Below are positions 18,542 to 25,150 of a DNA stretch of 36,585 nt, piece after piece. Within the stretch, counting starts at the first letter, position 1; every line of letters begins with the position of its first letter. This stretch comes from Bacteroidaceae bacterium (GTDB taxonomy: Bacteria; Bacteroidota; Bacteroidia; Bacteroidales; Bacteroidaceae). A model generated the notes under the pieces. The model was not told the origin of the DNA. It made no database searches and saw only the letters and a list, made by a program, of their open reading frames with translations. The stretch lies in contig JAFXDG010000126.1 in NCBI GenBank assembly GCA_017521285.1, positions 1-36,585 on the forward strand, in the 5' to 3' direction. Position numbers and translations under genes: made by a program.

Positions 18542-18650
18542 TGTAAGAATGATTGCTAAATTGTCGCAAAAGTAGAAAAAACTTTTGTAAATTTGCGGCT
18601 TTGAAGAGAAAAAATGAAATGTGGCACGTCCACCAAAAACGTATTTGATT

Positions 18651-20018
18651 ATGGAAACAAAGCAAAACAGAGTGAATTTTGGAAGTAAGATAGGGGCAAT
18701 TCTTGCCGCCGCAGGTTCGGCCGTAGGGTTGGGGAATATATGGCGTTTCCCCTACGAGGCTGGTAATCATGGTGGTGCCGCTTTCATCCTTATTTATCTG
18801 CTTTGCGTGGTGGTGATGGGTCTTCCTATCATGATGGCCGAGTTTACCATCGGTCGCCATTCGCGTGCCAATACGGCCGGTGCCTATAAGGTGTTGGCAC
18901 CGGGTTCTCCGTGGCGCGGTGTAGGATATATGGGTGTGTTGGCCGGATTTCTCATTCTCAGTTACTACTCCGTGGTGGCCGGATGGACATTGGAATATAC
19001 CTGGCAAGCCCTCAGTAACGGTTTCGCCGGGATGAGTGCCGAGGGATACACCCAGTTCTTTACCGATTTTTCGTCCAATCCGTGGCGCTCACTTTTGTGG
19101 ATGGTGGCGTTCATGCTGATGACCCATTGGGTAATCATTAAGGGAGTGAAGAAGGGTATCGAGAAATCGGCCAAGATTATGATGCCCATGCTTTTCATTC
19201 TCATTATCGTGTTGGCCATCTGTTCGGTGATGCTTCCCGGCGCCGACAAGGGATTGGAATTCTTGTTGAAGCCCGACTTCAGTAAGGTGACTCCTGACGT
19301 CTTCCTTGGAGCTATGGGGCAAGCCTTCTTCTCACTCAGCCTTGGTTTGGGGTGTCTTTCCACATACGCCTCTTATTTCGGTAAGGATACGAACCTTTCT
19401 AAAACGGCAATTAGTGTAGGAGCGATAGATACGCTGGTGGCCATCATGGCCGGTTTCATCATCTTCCCTGCCGCTTTCAGTGTGGGTGTGTCGCCTGATG
19501 CCGGTCCTTCGTTGCTTTTCATTACATTGCCCAACGTTTTCCAGATGGCATTCGGTAGTGTGCCCTTCTTGGCTTACATTTTCTCGGTGATGTTTTATGT
19601 GTTGCTGGCCTTGGCGGCTTTCACCTCTACCATCTCCATGCACGAAGTGGTAACCGCCTTTGTGCACGAGGATTGGAAAATCCCACGCGAAAAGGCAGCC
19701 CGTTACGTTACCCTCTTTTGCACCCTTTTGGGTGTCTTCTCGGCTCTTTCATTCGGAGTGCTGGGCGATATGAAGATTTTCGGGCTTACCTTCTTCGATT
19801 TCCTCGACACGTTCACCTCTAAGATCATGCTTCCCTTGGGTGGTATGCTCATCTCCATCTTTGCCGGATGGTATCTTGATCGTCGCATCGTGTGGGAGGA
19901 GATTTCCAATAACGGAAGTCTGAAGGTTCCTTTCTTCAAACTCTATATCTTTATCCTCAAGTATTTGGCTCCCGTCATCATCGGATTGATTTTTGTGAAC
20001 GAATTGGGATTGTGGTAA
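18651..20018 (+). CDS. Neurotransmitter:sodium symporter family transporter
   Basis: The protein has 455 residues from ATG 18651; a GTG 30 bp upstream lengthens the frame but starts in an unconserved stretch. The first helix holds GSAVGLGNIWRFPYEAGNHGG, the unwound sodium- and substrate-binding segment typical of LeuT-fold NSS proteins. Further helices include GLPIMMAEFTIGRHSR (helix 2), SYYSVVAGWTLEY (helix 3), FFSLSLGLGCLSTYASYF (helix 6) and the helix 8 region LAAFTSTISMHE. These carriers import amino acids or related solutes with sodium; the solute cannot be assigned. TAAATTTG at 18588-18595 is a likely -7 box. The helix-hairpin-helix gene follows after 23 bp. Confidence 0.93.
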   Translation: METKQNRVNFGSKIGAILAAAGSAVGLGNIWRFPYEAGNHGGAAFILIYLLCVVVMGLPIMMAEFTIGRHSRANTAGAYKVLAPGSPWRGVGYMGVLAGFLILSYYSVVAGWTLEYTWQALSNGFAGMSAEGYTQFFTDFSSNPWRSLLWMVAFMLMTHWVIIKGVKKGIEKSAKIMMPMLFILIIVLAICSVMLPGADKGLEFLLKPDFSKVTPDVFLGAMGQAFFSLSLGLGCLSTYASYFGKDTNLSKTAISVGAIDTLVAIMAGFIIFPAAFSVGVSPDAGPSLLFITLPNVFQMAFGSVPFLAYIFSVMFYVLLALAAFTSTISMHEVVTAFVHEDWKIPREKAARYVTLFCTLLGVFSALSFGVLGDMKIFGLTFFDFLDTFTSKIMLPLGGMLISIFAGWYLDRRIVWEEISNNGSLKVPFFKLYIFILKYLAPVIIGLIFVNELGLW

Positions 20019-20041: not shown

Positions 20042-20758
20042 ATGCTTAAAGAGTGGTTTTTCTTCTCGAAAGGCGATCGTCGGGCCATCCTTCTTCTTGT
20101 ATTGTTGTTGGTGGGTGGATTGTGTGCCTTGTGGTGGAAGGAGGATTACCATGGGCTTTCAGACGGGGAAGTGGCTTCATCCGATAGTGTCGTGGCCAAT
20201 TTCCGAGAGTCGATTGTTCGGAAGGGTAGAGAAGTGGAGCATCCGTCGGCTCGTCGGGATTCCTTTTCCCGAAGTCACCGTTCGCACAAACAACAGAGAG
20301 GTTTGGCTAAAGATTTTTTCCGCCCTACGGAGAAAAAAGTTTTTCCAGGTAGGATAGAAAAATTCTCCACGGATACGGTGCTCGATTTGAATATGGCCGA
20401 CACTTTTTTGCTGAAGCGCGTGCCGGGCATTGGCTCGTGGCGTGCGCGTCGCATCGTGGAGTTTCGTGGACACTTGGGTGGCTATAGTCGGGTGAATCAA
20501 TTGCTGGAAATTGACGGGATGCCCGACTCCATTCTCCGATGGTTTGCCATTCACACCCCTGTCCATAAGAAGATAGACCTCAATCGCGCCACGGCCGACG
20601 AAATGGCGGCCCATCCTTATATTACTTACAAACAGGCGCGTGTCATTCTCCGCCACAAGCGTCTGCATGGCCCTTTGCAATCGCTCTCCCAACTTTCCCT
20701 CTACGATGAATTTACCCAAGAACAATTGGATAGATTGAAACCTTACGTCGCGTTCTGA
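20042..20758 (+). CDS. Membrane-anchored helix-hairpin-helix protein (ComEA-like)
   Basis: The protein has 238 residues. One membrane helix near the N-terminus (AILLLVLLLVGGLCALWW) is followed by a basic linker with SRSHRSHKQQR. Two helix-hairpin-helix units follow: LDLNMADTFLLKRVPGIGSWRARRIVEFR at about 121-150 and IDLNRATADEMAAHPYITYKQARVILRHK at about 183-212. The motif pattern LN..A....L...PGIG..AR.I matches ComEA-type DNA-binding modules. It could bind incoming DNA or act elsewhere at the envelope; no other competence gene is nearby. It is probably cotranscribed with the symporter gene. Confidence 0.85.
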   Translation: MLKEWFFFSKGDRRAILLLVLLLVGGLCALWWKEDYHGLSDGEVASSDSVVANFRESIVRKGREVEHPSARRDSFSRSHRSHKQQRGLAKDFFRPTEKKVFPGRIEKFSTDTVLDLNMADTFLLKRVPGIGSWRARRIVEFRGHLGGYSRVNQLLEIDGMPDSILRWFAIHTPVHKKIDLNRATADEMAAHPYITYKQARVILRHKRLHGPLQSLSQLSLYDEFTQEQLDRLKPYVAF

Positions 20759-20765
20759 AGAATAC

Positions 20766-20787
20766 CATTCTTTCGCGCGAAAGAATG
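20766..20787. repeat. Perfect 22-bp palindrome after the helix-hairpin-helix gene
   Basis: CATTCTTTCGC followed by GCGAAAGAATG is fully self-complementary with no loop. It lies eight bases after the stop codon. There is no U-tract, so it is not a standard terminator; it may be a protein-binding site or transcript end hairpin. Confidence 0.7.
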
Positions 20788-20870
20788 CTAATCTTGGTGG
20801 TTGAAGATTACGATTCTTTGTACAGATGGCAATTGCCTATATTTATAAAAAGTGGTTACAATTCTGTACT

Positions 20871-20912
20871 CCCCTGACGCTTGTCTGATAGAATTCAGGC
20901 ACGTGTCAGGGG
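20871..20912. repeat. Hairpin between convergent genes
   Basis: CCCCTGAC (20871-20878) pairs with GTCAGGGG (20905-20912), with an inner TGTCTGA/TTCAGGCA pairing. An outer GTACAGA (20820-20826)/TCTGTAC (20863-20869) hairpin encloses GGCAATTGCC just to the left. This may serve to end transcripts from both sides, but U-tracts are poorly placed. Confidence 0.5.
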
Positions 20913-20932
20913 ATAAAAAAGCGGAATCTTGA

Positions 20933-22261
20933 TTACTCTGTGTACTCGTAGTCGCGCAGATTACCGGCCAGGTAGTTGTCGTAAGCGGTCATGTCGATGA
21001 GGCCATGCCCTGAGAGATTGAACAGGATAACCTTTTGTGCACCAGCTAACTTGCAACGTTCGGCTTCGCGAATGACGGCAGCAATAGCGTGGCACGATTC
21101 CGGTGCAGGTACAATGCCCTCGGCTTTGGCAAAAAGGATACCGGCACTGAAGGACTCTAATTGCCGGATGTCCACCGCTTCCATCAGGCCATCTTTAAGC
21201 AACTGGCTCACAATCACTCCGGCACCATGATAGCGAAGTCCGCCTGCATGGATATTGGCCGGCATGAAGTCATGCCCCAATGAATACATCGGCAACAGAG
21301 GGGTGTATCCTGCTACATCACCAAAGTCGTAGCAGAATTTTCCGTGCGTTAGTTTGGGACACGAAGCCGGTTCGGCCGCAACGAAGCGCGTCTGTTTGCC
21401 GTCGGAAAGGTTGTGCCGCATGAAGGGGAAGGCAATGCCTCCAAAGTTGGAACCTCCCCCGAAGCAACCGATGACCACATCGGGGTACTCACCGGCCATC
21501 TCCATCTGCTTTTCCGCCTCAAGTCCGATGACAGTCTGGTGCAACGCTACATGGTTGAGCACCGAGCCTAAGACATACTTGCAATTGGGCGTTTCGCGTG
21601 CCAGTTCGATAGCTTCCGATATCGCAGTGCCTAAGGAGCCTTGATTGTTTGGGTCGTTTGTAAGAATGTCCTTTCCTGCGCGTGTTGACATGGAGGGCGA
21701 GGGGATTACCTGTGCACCATACAACTGCATTATTGAGCGTCGGTAAGGTTTCTGTTCATAACTGATCTTGACCTGATATACAGCGGCTTCCAATCCGAAT
21801 ACTTGGGCAGCATAGGCTACGGCAGTACCCCATTGTCCGGCTCCTGTTTCGGTGGTGATGTTTGTCACTCCTTCCTGTTTGCAATAGTAGGCTTGGGCAA
21901 GTGCCGAGTTCAGCTTGTGGCTACCCACGGGACTTACCGACTCGTTCTTGAAATAGATGTGAGCCGGAGTGTCGAGGGCACGCTCCAATCCGTAGGCACG
22001 TACCAAGGGGGTCGAACGGTAGGTGCGGTAGAGGTTGCGTACGGGTTCGGGAATGTCTATCCACGGATGTTGCTGGTCAAGTTCCTGCCGGCTGCACTCT
22101 TTACAGAATACACCATAAAGGTCTTCCGCTTTCAGTGCTTCGCGTGTGGCGGGATGCAAAGGAGGCATAGGTTTGTTGGGCATTTCAGCCTGAATGTTGT
22201 ACCACTGGGTGGGAATCTCTTTTTCACTAAGGAAAAAACGCTTTTGATTTGTTTTCATCAC
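20933..22261 (-). CDS. trpB: TrpB2-type tryptophan synthase beta chain, orphan
   Basis: This 442-residue PLP enzyme is of the TrpB2 class, which is longer than classic TrpB. PLP-binding Lys116 is in GSHKLNSA, the TETGAGQWG loop is at 137-145 and the glycine-rich phosphate loop CFGGGSNFGG at 266-275. It makes tryptophan from indole and serine. No trpA or other trp gene adjoins it, so an indole-salvage role is plausible. The leader carries a Trp-codon peptide and a terminator (see 22427 and 22328), which ties expression to charged tRNA-Trp and supports a true role in tryptophan supply. TrpB2 proteins do not always bind TrpA. The start at 22259-22261 (MMKTNQ) could equally be the next codon. Confidence 0.93.
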   Translation of the reverse strand: MMKTNQKRFFLSEKEIPTQWYNIQAEMPNKPMPPLHPATREALKAEDLYGVFCKECSRQELDQQHPWIDIPEPVRNLYRTYRSTPLVRAYGLERALDTPAHIYFKNESVSPVGSHKLNSALAQAYYCKQEGVTNITTETGAGQWGTAVAYAAQVFGLEAAVYQVKISYEQKPYRRSIMQLYGAQVIPSPSMSTRAGKDILTNDPNNQGSLGTAISEAIELARETPNCKYVLGSVLNHVALHQTVIGLEAEKQMEMAGEYPDVVIGCFGGGSNFGGIAFPFMRHNLSDGKQTRFVAAEPASCPKLTHGKFCYDFGDVAGYTPLLPMYSLGHDFMPANIHAGGLRYHGAGVIVSQLLKDGLMEAVDIRQLESFSAGILFAKAEGIVPAPESCHAIAAVIREAERCKLAGAQKVILFNLSGHGLIDMTAYDNYLAGNLRDYEYTE

Positions 22262-22327
22262 TTTTGTTCGTTAATGGGTTATTGAATAAATGAATCCGGA
22301 TTCTTCGTTGTTCTTGGATGAATATGC

Positions 22328-22379
22328 AAAAACAGGGAGGAAACCTGGTGCGTCGCGTGCACTGCAAGTTTCCTCCCTG
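22328..22379 (-). terminator. Attenuator terminator in the trpB leader
   Basis: On the minus strand, CAGGGAGGAAAC (22379-22368) and GTTTCCTCCCTG (22344-22333) form a perfect 12-bp stem with a 23-nt GC-rich loop. Five U follow (22332-22328). It lies 66 nt before the trpB ATG and 47 nt after the leader-peptide stop, so it acts inside the leader, not at a gene end. Confidence 0.88.
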
Positions 22380-22411
22380 GGTGTGATATGCTTAAAGATT
22401 TACTCTGCTTT

Positions 22412-22417
22412 CAGAGA
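22412..22417 (-). promoter_or_regulatory. Candidate antiterminator segment of the trp leader
   Basis: UCUCUG on the transcript can pair with CAGGGA at the start of the terminator stem (22379-22374), which would break it. A ribosome resting on the leader stop (22427-22429) would cover this segment; one stalled on the Trp codons would leave it free. This is the logic of trp attenuation, inferred by eye. Confidence 0.45.
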
Positions 22418-22426
22418 AATGTAATC

Positions 22427-22501
22427 CTATGCTATCCTTCGTCGGTATGGTGTACAAGGCAATTGCTCACGACTTTCCTGTCCTGAGCGCCACCACCACA
22501 T
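22427..22501 (-). CDS. trpL: Tryptophan leader peptide (three consecutive Trp codons)
   Basis: A 24-codon frame runs from ATG 22501-22499 to TAG 22429-22427. It begins Met-Trp-Trp-Trp-Arg-Ser-Gly-Gln and ends Tyr-Arg-Arg-Arg-Ile-Ala. TGG TGG TGG directly after the start is extremely unlikely by chance in front of a tryptophan synthase gene and a terminator. It is read as a sensor: lack of charged tRNA-Trp stalls the ribosome and lets transcription pass the terminator. A TACATTTG box at 22586-22579 (minus strand) is the likely -7 element, giving about 70 nt before the ATG; the -33 box is weak. Confidence 0.88.
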   Translation of the reverse strand: MWWWRSGQESREQLPCTPYRRRIA

Positions 22502-22674
22502 GTTATTATGACGAATGTTGATAAACATAGTCTGTTCTTTATGAAGGTTATTTCATGTTGTCTAACAAAACGACGGTGCAAATGTATGGCTTATTTGGGA
22601 AAAATCATCGTTTTTTATTGTTTTTTTTTCTATTTGTGGGCAAAAAATGACAAACAAGTACTGCTGATGGGGAT

Positions 22675-23445
22675 TTACCCCTCAATATTCTTCACCTCCA
22701 CCTCCTTTACCTTGCGGAGCAGGTCGCTGGCGAAGATGAAGTTGTTCAGGCGCTCGTTGGTGGAGGTGAACACATCGTCCTTGGTGCCTTCCCATTCCTT
22801 GTGTCCTTCAAAAATGAAGGAGACTTTGTCGCCGATGCCCATCACGGAGTTCATGTCGTGGGTGTTGATGATGGTGGTCATGTTGTACTCCTCGGTGATG
22901 CTATGGATAAGGTCGTCGATGACGAGCGATGTCTTTGGGTCAAGTCCACTATTCGGTTCGTCGCAGAAGAGGTATTTCGGATTCAGTGCAATGGCTCGTG
23001 CGATGGCTACACGCTTCTGCATACCGCCACTGATTTCACCGGGATATTTTCCTTGTGCATCGGTCAGGTTTACGCGTTCGAGGCAAAACTGGGCGCGTCG
23101 CACACGGTCGCGATAGGTGTCGTTGGAGAACATGTCGAGGGGAAACATGACGTTTTCCAATACACTCATGGAGTCAAACAAAGCCGCACTCTGGAAAATC
23201 ATGCCCATTTCGCGACGAAGGAGCTTCTTTTCCTTCTTCTTCATGCTCACGAAGTCGCGCCCGTCATAGAGGATTCTTCCTGTTTCGGGAGTGAGCAGGC
23301 CTACGATACACTTCATCAGCACCGTCTTTCCGCTTCCGCTCTGTCCGATGATGAGGTTGGTCTTACCGTTGTCAAACGTGGTGCTGATGTCCTTCAGTAC
23401 TTGTCTGTCCTCGAAGGATTTGCAAAGGTTGTTTATCTGTATCAT
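22675..23445 (-). CDS. mlaF: MlaF-like ABC transporter ATP-binding protein
   Basis: The protein has 256 residues. Walker A GQSGSGKT is at 34-41, the Q-loop at FQS, signature ISGGMQKR at 138-145, Walker B YLFCDEP at 158-164 and the H-loop in NTHD. The sequence style (ISGGMQKRVAIARAIALNPKYLFCDEPNSGLDP) is that of the Mla/Mkl phospholipid-transport ATPases. The ATG overlaps the end of mlaE by four bases, so the two are translationally coupled. The system moves phospholipids between the inner and outer membrane. An MCE-domain partner (MlaD) would be expected but is not in this window. A small GGGGTAAATCCCC hairpin contains the stop codon. Confidence 0.9.
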   Translation of the reverse strand: MIQINNLCKSFEDRQVLKDISTTFDNGKTNLIIGQSGSGKTVLMKCIVGLLTPETGRILYDGRDFVSMKKKEKKLLRREMGMIFQSAALFDSMSVLENVMFPLDMFSNDTYRDRVRRAQFCLERVNLTDAQGKYPGEISGGMQKRVAIARAIALNPKYLFCDEPNSGLDPKTSLVIDDLIHSITEEYNMTTIINTHDMNSVMGIGDKVSFIFEGHKEWEGTKDDVFTSTNERLNNFIFASDLLRKVKEVEVKNIEG

Positions 23446-24191
23446 ATCGAAAGCAGGTGGGTGAGAATCAAGTCGGAGAAAAGGATAAGTATGCTACTGT
23501 GCACCACGGCGTCGGTGCTGGCTTTGCCCACTTCGATGGAGCCGCCTTCCACGGTGTAGCCATAGAAGGATGAAACGCTGGCAATGATGAAGGCAAAGAA
23601 GAAACTCTTGATGATGCCGTACCATACGAACCATTCAGTAAACTCGTATTGGAGGCCGTAGGTGAGGTCTTCGGGATTGATGATGTCGGCAAACCATCCC
23701 GTGGCGTATGCTCCGATGATGCCGGCTCCGATGCTGAAGGTCACCAAGAAAGGAATCATGGTGACCAGGCCTGCGATTTTGGGGAGGATGAGGAAATTGG
23801 CCGAGTTGACTCCCATGATTTCAAGAGCATCAATCTGTTGGGTTACCCGCATGGTGCCTAATTCGGATGCTATGTTGCTCCCTACCTTTCCGGCAAGGAT
23901 GAGACACATGATGGCCGAGGAGAACTCCAGCAACATGATTTCGCGTGTGGTGTAACCGGTCACGAAGCGGGGCATCCAGGGACTCTGGATGTTCAATTTG
24001 ATCTGAATACAGATGACCGCACCGATAAAAAACGAAATCAAGAGGACGATGCCGATGGAGTCAACCCCCAATTGTGACATCTCCTTGACGTATTGTTTGA
24101 AGAAACTTCTCATGCGTTCGGGACGGGCAAAAACCTTGCCCATCAGTATCAGATACTGGCCGAATGTTTGAAGCGGTTTGATGAGTATCAT
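23442..24191 (-). CDS. mlaE: MlaE-like ABC transporter permease
   Basis: The protein has 249 residues and about five membrane segments. It has MlaE-family motifs: GVDSIGIVLLISFFIGAVI, the LAGKVGSNIASELGTMRVTQQIDALEIMGVNS cytoplasmic loop that contacts the ATPase, and VEGGSIEVGKASTDAVVHSSI near the end. It forms the membrane channel of the phospholipid transporter with MlaF. TACCTTTG on the minus strand at 24222-24215, about 24 bp before the ATG, is a likely -7 box, with no clear -33 box. It is divergent from lptB, giving an envelope-lipid cluster. Confidence 0.9.
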   Translation of the reverse strand: MILIKPLQTFGQYLILMGKVFARPERMRSFFKQYVKEMSQLGVDSIGIVLLISFFIGAVICIQIKLNIQSPWMPRFVTGYTTREIMLLEFSSAIMCLILAGKVGSNIASELGTMRVTQQIDALEIMGVNSANFLILPKIAGLVTMIPFLVTFSIGAGIIGAYATGWFADIINPEDLTYGLQYEFTEWFVWYGIIKSFFFAFIIASVSSFYGYTVEGGSIEVGKASTDAVVHSSILILFSDLILTHLLSI

Positions 24192-24325
24192 GTCCTTGTT
24201 TTTGTTAATTTCTGCAAAGGTAACTCTTTTTGTCCGAAAAATGATGCATTCTTTAAGTAGATTATTCCTTTAATAACCTTTTTTAAAGGGAATTTTTCGT
24301 ACTTTTGTACCCAAAATCTGAATAT

Positions 24326-25150
24326 ATGACTGAAATGAACAGTACAGAGGAAAATGTGAACACCGTTTCTCCGCAAGTTCCAACGTGGTCGGACGAGCAG
24401 ATGGTGCTCCGTTCGGAGGGATTGGTGAAGCGATATGGAAAGCGCACCGTGGTGAATCAGGCTTCGTTCAATGTGAAGCAGGGCGAGATTGTCGGCCTGT
24501 TGGGGCCTAACGGGGCGGGAAAGACAACCTCTTTCTACATGACCACAGGCCTGGTGGTTCCCAATGAGGGGCATATCTATCTGAACGATTTGGAGATAAC
24601 GAAATTTCCGGTATATAAGCGGGCGCAGAATGGCATTGCCTATCTGGCACAGGAGGCTTCGGTGTTCCGTAAGATGAGTGTGGAGGACAATATTGCTTCT
24701 GTTTTGGAGATGACTCCCACGACAAAAGAGTATCAGAAGGAGAAGTTGGAGAGCCTGATTGCAGAGTTCCGTCTGCAGAAGGTGCGCAAGAATCTGGGTG
24801 ATCAGCTTTCGGGAGGTGAGCGCCGACGTACGGAGATTGCCCGATGCCTGGCCATCAATCCTAAATTCATCATGTTGGACGAACCGTTTGCGGGCGTTGA
24901 CCCCATTGCCGTGGAGGACATCCAGCACATTGTGTGGAAACTGAAGGACAAGAATATCGGCATCCTGATTACTGACCATAATGTGGGTGAGACTCTCAGC
25001 ATCACTGACCGCGCTTATATGTTGTTCGAGGGAAAAATCCTTTTCCAAGGCTCTCCCGAGGAGTTGGCCGAGAATCCCATTGTGCGTGCGAAATATCTTA
25101 GCAATAGTTTCGTTTTGCGTCGTAAAGATTTCCAATTAAGCGGAAGATAA
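24326..25150 (+). CDS. lptB: LPS export ABC transporter ATP-binding protein
   Basis: The protein has 274 residues from ATG 24326 (a longer frame starts with TTG inside the promoter). Walker A GPNGAGKT is at 60-67, signature LSGGERRR at 161-168 and Walker B FIMLDEPFAGVDP at about 181-193, with TDHN as the H-loop. VGLLGPNGAGKTTSFYM and VRKNLGDQLSGGERRRTEIARCL are specific to LptB, the ATPase that powers lipopolysaccharide extraction from the inner membrane. About 25 residues precede the usual start; an internal ATG at 24401 (MVLRSEGLVKRYGKRTVV) would remove them. TACTTTTG at 24300-24307 is a probable -7 box. Confidence 0.93.
   Translation: MTEMNSTEENVNTVSPQVPTWSDEQMVLRSEGLVKRYGKRTVVNQASFNVKQGEIVGLLGPNGAGKTTSFYMTTGLVVPNEGHIYLNDLEITKFPVYKRAQNGIAYLAQEASVFRKMSVEDNIASVLEMTPTTKEYQKEKLESLIAEFRLQKVRKNLGDQLSGGERRRTEIARCLAINPKFIMLDEPFAGVDPIAVEDIQHIVWKLKDKNIGILITDHNVGETLSITDRAYMLFEGKILFQGSPEELAENPIVRAKYLSNSFVLRRKDFQLSGR

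Follow-up and report, generated by a model that had tools for sequence, protein, structure and literature searches.

The window, by which we mean the whole 36,585-nt stretch of contig JAFXDG010000126.1 from a Bacteroidaceae bacterium, contains on its minus strand a lone trpB2 gene and, upstream of it, all the parts of an attenuator. The gene (20933..22261, minus strand) encodes a TrpB-like protein (TIGR01415/PRK12391) of 442 residues, read from GTG 22261, with an ATG at 22258. The product of 22261-20933 scores 595.3 bits against TIGR01415 trpB_rel, above the curated cut-off of 518.85, and its best solved-structure matches are tryptophan synthase beta chains, in agreement with the trpB2 assignment in the preliminary description. 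A terminator-like hairpin 3′ of the gene (20766..20787, minus strand) may end a single-gene transcript; as the region 20500-24500 holds four terminator-like sites against 3.6 expected from shuffles, the count lends this hairpin little weight. Two mla-type ABC genes lie upstream on the same strand (22675-23445 and 23442-24191), and a gene for a sodium-dependent transporter (18621-20018, plus strand; NF037979, 135.9 bits) lies near trpB2 on the opposite strand.

In the direction of transcription, the leader region begins with TACATTTG (22579..22586, minus strand), a match to TAnnTTTG, which we take to be the Bacteroidetes-type -7 promoter motif. Of 67 leaders, the window's among them, 61 carry this motif in the 90 nt 5′ of their ATG, compared to 99 of 1340 shuffles. 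The leader ORF MFINIRHNNMWWWRSGQESREQLPCTPYRRRIA (22427..22528, minus strand), whose start was chosen by comparison with 66 other leaders, ends with the stop codon TAG 22429-22427. Inside it are three putative regulatory Trp codons, UGGUGGUGG (22490..22498, minus strand), which align with the Trp runs of relatives. The window holds a single copy of ATGTGGTGGTGG, at 22501-22490, and 100 shuffles hold none; for TGGTGGTGG alone the expectation is 0.34 occurrences per window. Directly 3′ of the Trp codons stands hairpin 1, GCUCAGGAC ... GUCGUGAGC (22465..22488, minus strand), assigned from folding and covariation. Its 3′ arm and the nucleotides downstream form the putative antiterminator strand GUCGUGAGCAAUUGC (22459..22473, minus strand), and an extra local hairpin, CUCUG-AAAG-CAGAG (22403..22416, minus strand), overlaps the sequence UCUCUG. 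The candidate partner of the antiterminator strand, GCAGUGCACGCGAC (22352..22365, minus strand), lies in the loop of an intrinsic terminator, CAGGGAGGAAAC...GUUUCCUCCCUG followed by U5 (22328..22379, minus strand). The 12-bp stem with U5 noted in the preliminary description is present (22379-22368 with 22344-22333, and U5 at 22332-22328) and extends to 15 pairs. Its fold has an energy of -31.2 kcal/mol (z -6.57), and none of 200 shuffles is as stable; for the fold of the whole 325-nt leader, z is -4.42. A simple terminator scan of 22262-22674 gave no match, probably because loops were limited to at most 8.

The host assembly is 86% complete. No trpA, trpD or trpB1 was found in it, and a TrpB2 query returned two TrpB2 genes. 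The trpD and trpA families were each found in 5 of 15 genomes of the genus. The trp operon is likely missing from this genome, with the qualification that one gap in the assembly could hide a whole operon. Absence of trpA, trpD and trpB1 fits indole salvage by the predicted enzyme, and if the operon is missing, trpB2 would be the remaining Trp-forming step, fed by outside indole. The second trpB2 (G000:C130:2-1297, L002) is 79% identical to the first and groups with the usual copy of the genus; its leader is unreadable because contig C130 begins inside the gene.

The preliminary description gave the leader 24 codons and placed Trp at positions 2-4, which it regarded as unusual. The Trp run is there, as is an ORF of 24 codons from ATG 22501-22499 (MWWWRSGQESREQLPCTPYRRRIA), but the position of the Trp codons is not supported. 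The same frame also opens nine codons earlier, at ATG 22528 (MFINIRHNNMWWW..., 33 codons), which makes the first Trp codon position 11 instead of position 2. For the other leaders, the start was first set at the most distant ATG inside a bounded search length, 40 nt in most trp-operon leaders, or, for L058, L080 and L085, at the nearest ATG; all in-frame ATGs were then enumerated for the 66. None of the 66 has an ATG immediately 5′ of the Trp run, and on this ground the early Trp codons were rejected as a peculiarity of the window. In all 66 the nearest in-frame ATG places the first Trp codon at position 5-11, and each of them has an ATG that makes it position 6-12; several in-frame ATGs occur in 25 of them, some as far off as 48 codons. 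The promoter box is 58 nt from ATG 22528 and 85 nt from ATG 22501. For 56 of the 61 promoter boxes the distance to the ATG is 28-47 nt; with either start the window exceeds this range, by less with 22528. Promoter spacing and the comparison with the 66 leaders both favour ATG 22528 over 22501.

Matches to trpB2 were found in 231 of 301 genomes of the family and in 88 of 247 genomes of the order, and the 176 upstream regions examined come from part of these genes. We counted a leader as present when an ATG-initiated ORF with TGGTGG 60-330 nt upstream of the gene was accompanied by a terminator within 30-175 nt. This combination precedes 33 of the 176 Bacteroidales trpB2 genes (5/30, 3/26, 9/60 and 16/60 by batch) and is absent from all 880 shuffles and all 176 reverse strands. 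Three loci with WW(W) leaders that failed the terminator score (L134, L136 and L138) are not among the 33, and the Trp-run ORFs L147, L156 and L158 were set aside as being far from the gene. In the set of named trpB2 loci, 3 of 80 are positive, two of which are already among the 33. The closest homologues in the named collection, those of Palleniella muris (84% identical, L276) and of the best MAG (85%, L277), lack the leader. A Trp-codon attenuator in front of trpB2, as first proposed from this one locus, thus recurs in Bacteroidales, and the upstream comparison suggested at that time does reveal TGG runs with terminators before some orthologues. Orthologues without the TGG run had been named as evidence against the proposal. 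They turn out to be the majority, as 143 of the 176 genes fail our criterion and so do L276 and L277; on this comparison, the Trp leader before trpB2 is a lineage-specific trait and not a universal one. On a TrpB2 tree of 97 proteins, built by a quick method and rooted at the midpoint for display, the leader label requires 10 changes compared to 26.5 for shuffled labels. The trait is clustered on this tree and common in the more divergent families, through either one origin or repeated gain. The window trpB2 forms a branch by itself, separate from the copy on contig C130, which is the genus's own.

Upstream regions of trpB2 in relatives have a motif in common, TGGTGGC..CTCA.GA..loop..GTCGTGAG. 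Scanning 399 family genomes with this pattern gives 28 sites in 24 genomes, and the reversed pattern gives none. By reading, with one example per gene verified with NCBIfam, the next ORF is trpB2 at nine sites, trpB1 at 11, trpD at seven and unassigned at one; a strict terminator is absent from three of the 28 loci (L064, L066 and L083). Rfam identifies two of eight such loci as Bacteroid-trp, RF01692 (63.4 and 55.5 bits), an element that Weinberg et al. 2010 (PMC2864571) list as a likely cis-regulatory RNA of Bacteroidetes. The novelty for the phylum that had been assumed at the outset is therefore lost, as Bacteroid-trp is a known relative. A search of 121 family genomes with RF01692 produced matches in 34, of which 21 were above the cut-off, and no match in the window's own genome, which was part of this search. 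Among 30 RF01692 loci listed, 26 stand before a trpB1-like ORF, one before trpB2 (G112, 46.0 bits) and three before unassigned ORFs, again by reading. RF01692 does not match the window at the gathering score (49 bits), nor positions 22200-22700 at E ≤ 1, and at E ≤ 0.1 none of ten other loci is identified as RF01692 (the trpB2 leaders L011, L018, L029, L030, L044, L045, L058, L060 and L085, and the trpB1 leader L072). The Rfam model of Bacteroid-trp thus misses most of the trpB2-associated leaders tried. As there is no RF01692 match by the Rfam cut-off, we file the window element as a relative of the family, not as a member.

We built a covariance model, R1, from 29 relatives; the window was left out, as were L141-L143, L145 and L146, five leaders that had misaligned. 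The top match of R1 in the window is 22504-22415 on the minus strand (27.7 bits, E 1.8e-4 over 36.6 kb). This match includes every pair of hairpin 1 but leaves the terminator of the window itself outside the alignment. The next match reaches 15.5 bits, at 840-940 on the minus strand, a terminator-like hairpin without a Trp run. On 27 loci outside the model R1 matches the leader, the E values ranging between 1.6e-18 and 2.2e-3. Because terminator hairpins read on the opposite strand in other loci score as high as 22.5 bits (E 2e-3), score alone does not secure the weakest of the 27. A search of the whole of the window's own genome, in which 150 of 672 candidates were scored, gave nothing at E ≤ 0.001 and did not recover the window site, whose E value becomes about 0.02 when rescaled to 3.4 Mb. 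Kinship with Bacteroid-trp-like leaders is indicated by the 36-kb search, the shared motif and the position of the element, and not by a genome-wide score. Like RF01692, the window has a Bacteroidetes leader ORF with a UGG run, a hairpin after the Trp codons with a GUCGURAG 3′ arm, and a terminator, all in front of a trp gene. It differs in that the gene is trpB2, not trpB1 or trpD, in that the leader reads through the 3′ arm, and in a longer gap and a different terminator sequence, besides the lack of an Rfam match at E ≤ 1. The GGCCUGUC-type terminator 5′ arm close behind hairpin 1 is absent in the window, where the arm is CAGGGAGGAAAC.

Duplex-energy and constrained-folding calculations covered 64 of the 67 leaders; L058 and L144, for which no terminator was obtained, and L064, in which the wrong hairpin had been taken, were left out. 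From these 64 leaders with a usable terminator, 35 including the window were taken into a structural alignment. In this alignment, 89.7% of the cells belonging to hairpin 1 and the terminator are paired, compared to at most 50.7% in slid versions. Both-sided changes occur in 15 of their 20 pairs (four of eight in hairpin 1 and 11 of 12 in the terminator helix), a level that none of 500 shuffles reaches. Hairpin 1 has a probability of 0.996 in the free window RNA. The antiterminator strand is probably GUCGUGAG(CAAUUGC), in the 3′ arm of hairpin 1, which is common to the relatives and would pair with the terminator loop. The helix of GUCGUGAG with the terminator loop and upper arm (CUUACGAC) has 87.5% of cells paired, compared to at most 63.5% when slid. 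It covaries weakly, with both-sided changes in two pairs, and 104 of 500 shuffles score as high. The window duplex with GCAGUGCACGCGAC has an energy of -21.6 kcal/mol, which nine of 200 shuffles equal; the corresponding duplex is better than 95% of shuffles in only 29 of the 64 leaders.

When the Trp codons are covered and the 3′ arm of the terminator is not yet made, the minimum-energy fold of the window holds a 13-pair long-range helix with the terminator loop. When the RNA is free or a ribosome sits at UAG 22427, hairpin 1 forms and the antiterminator helix is absent. The expected number of antiterminator pairs in the window is 18.5 with the ribosome on the Trp codons, 0.6 in free RNA and 0.07 with the ribosome at the stop codon. 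At least five expected pairs are found in 62, four and none of the 64 leaders in these three states; a ribosome placed on the start codon yields them in 12 of 64. Among 384 controls in which the antiterminator region was shuffled, 200 still reach at least five pairs (mean 5.6 compared to 11.3 in real leaders) and 145 appear switch-like, because blocking a region frees pairing by itself; for the window, one of six shuffles lies above the real value. The constrained-folding result fits a switch but is not decisive alone. In the full-length window RNA the terminator prevails in every state tested (P at least 0.98), which implies that antitermination must be kinetic.

With good though not full confidence, we regard the element as a ribosome-mediated transcription attenuator by which Trp-tRNA charging governs the lone trpB2. 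Sequence and comparison support its parts, the kinship with Bacteroid-trp-like leaders, the covariation of hairpin 1 and terminator, and the shared antiterminator complementarity; from these we infer ribosome stalling, antitermination, a response to Trp and the use of indole by the enzyme. With Trp available, the ribosome would clear the UGG run, hairpin 1 (22488-22465) would reform and mask GUCGUGAG, and the terminator would form, ending transcription near 22328. With Trp in short supply, the ribosome would stall on the UGG codons and thereby occupy the 5′ arm of hairpin 1. GUCGUGAG(CAAUUGC), set free in this way, could then pair with the terminator loop before the 3′ arm of the terminator exists, and RNA polymerase would continue into trpB2; the enzyme made from it would couple serine with scavenged indole.

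The window departs from its relatives in ways that could also mean decay. Measured from where GUCGUGAG begins, the stop codon falls between -5 and +8 nt in 26 of the 27 other pattern loci, at +24 in L066 and at +44 in the window, so masking by a ribosome at the stop codon would be lost here. The loop of hairpin 1 is shorter than in those relatives that have their UGA stop inside GUCGUGAG, and the leader continues to UAG 22427. The gap between hairpin 1 and the terminator is 86 nt, with an inserted hairpin, compared to 30-51 nt in 24 other leaders measured. On this evidence, together with the second trpB2 in the genome and the blindness of the Rfam model to this copy, a former Bacteroid-trp-type switch, with its usual stop position and spacing gone, may now be a partial constitutive terminator of a spare trpB2. 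We consider this unlikely. Leaders running on for 11-18 codons past the last Trp codon occur in six of the 66 others (L029, L066, L088, L094, L111 and L138), so the run-on of 20 codons in the window need not be a defect. Hairpin 1, the promoter box and the complement to the terminator loop have been kept, and the terminator is very strong.

It is very improbable that hairpin 22379-22328 mainly terminates transcripts of the upstream mla-type ABC genes (22675-24191), with the Trp ORF incidental. These genes are on the same strand, and the simple scan saw no other terminator in 22262-22674, but about 300 nt with the promoter box and the Trp-run ORF lie in between, related leaders precede trpB1, trpD and trpB2 in other genomes, and the combination of leader and terminator occurs in none of the 880 shuffles. 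Scarcely any probability attaches either to the attenuator of the preliminary description, in which UCUCUG (22417-22412) acts as antiterminator on the terminator 5′ arm and is masked by a ribosome at UAG 22427: six pairs with CAGGGA at the start of the terminator stem are possible by eye and such a ribosome would cover UCUCUG, but we rejected this strand since it falls within an insertion confined to the window row of the alignment and missing from the other 34, it mostly pairs locally with CAGAG in predicted folds when ribosome-free, and the strand common to relatives is GUCGUGAG. We retain the Trp attenuator related to Bacteroid-trp, probably in working order.

Attenuators of the trpL type, in proteobacterial trp operons, likewise combine a Trp-codon leader, alternative hairpins and an intrinsic terminator; the likeness is one of layout, and in the window the putative antiterminator pairs with the terminator loop. 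Among Actinobacteria, both trpB1EDGC and trpB2A of C. diphtheriae are described as being preceded by candidate attenuators (Seliverstov et al. 2005, PMC1262725). In that account actinobacterial trp attenuators resemble the window in their double or triple UGG codons, terminator and complementary triples, and differ in phylum and in that the gene, likened to ours by name, is in a trpB2A pair. Clues to leader-peptide attenuation before amino-acid operons are mentioned for psychrophilum (PMC9723704), and indole salvage by TrpB1/TrpB2 for Thermococcus kodakarensis (Hiyama 2014, as cited in PMC11085991). Among the matches listed in open-access literature on trp attenuation, Bacteroid-trp and TrpB2 salvage, the portions consulted held no report of a Trp leader before trpB2 in Bacteroidetes. 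The principle itself is ordinary, and the interesting part is its widespread link with trpB2.

The results add to the targets of a known RNA switch of Bacteroidetes a gene that probably enables these bacteria to form tryptophan from the indole of others. We tentatively suggest, as a possibility with somewhat less than even prospects, that the control of trpB2 by Trp-tRNA-sensing attenuation is ancient and widespread in Bacteroidales and has often been lost. Indole capture would in that case be a starvation response controlled apart from de novo synthesis, and it would persist in genomes that have no trp operon, with trpB2 as the sole Trp-producing step and indole coming from neighbours. If true, Trp starvation would turn on the capture of indole for tryptophan in many Bacteroidales, which bears on indole levels in gut and rumen communities.

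Other arrangements were seen during the survey. In genus g54 the trpB2 leaders (L141-L146) have another sequence, in which UGAGC pairs with GCUC of the terminator, in the same layout, and are positive in six of six genomes examined. One assembly carries two trpB2 copies, each with a Trp leader (G212:C6 and G212:C82; L080 and L085), which could be a strain mixture. Three genomes, G228, G104 and G121, each have paired Bacteroid-trp-like elements about 5-6.6 kb apart (L063/L082, L068/L083 and L070/L084), the two preceding, by eye, a trpB1-like ORF and a trpD-like ORF respectively, as in a split trp operon in which each unit has its own attenuator.
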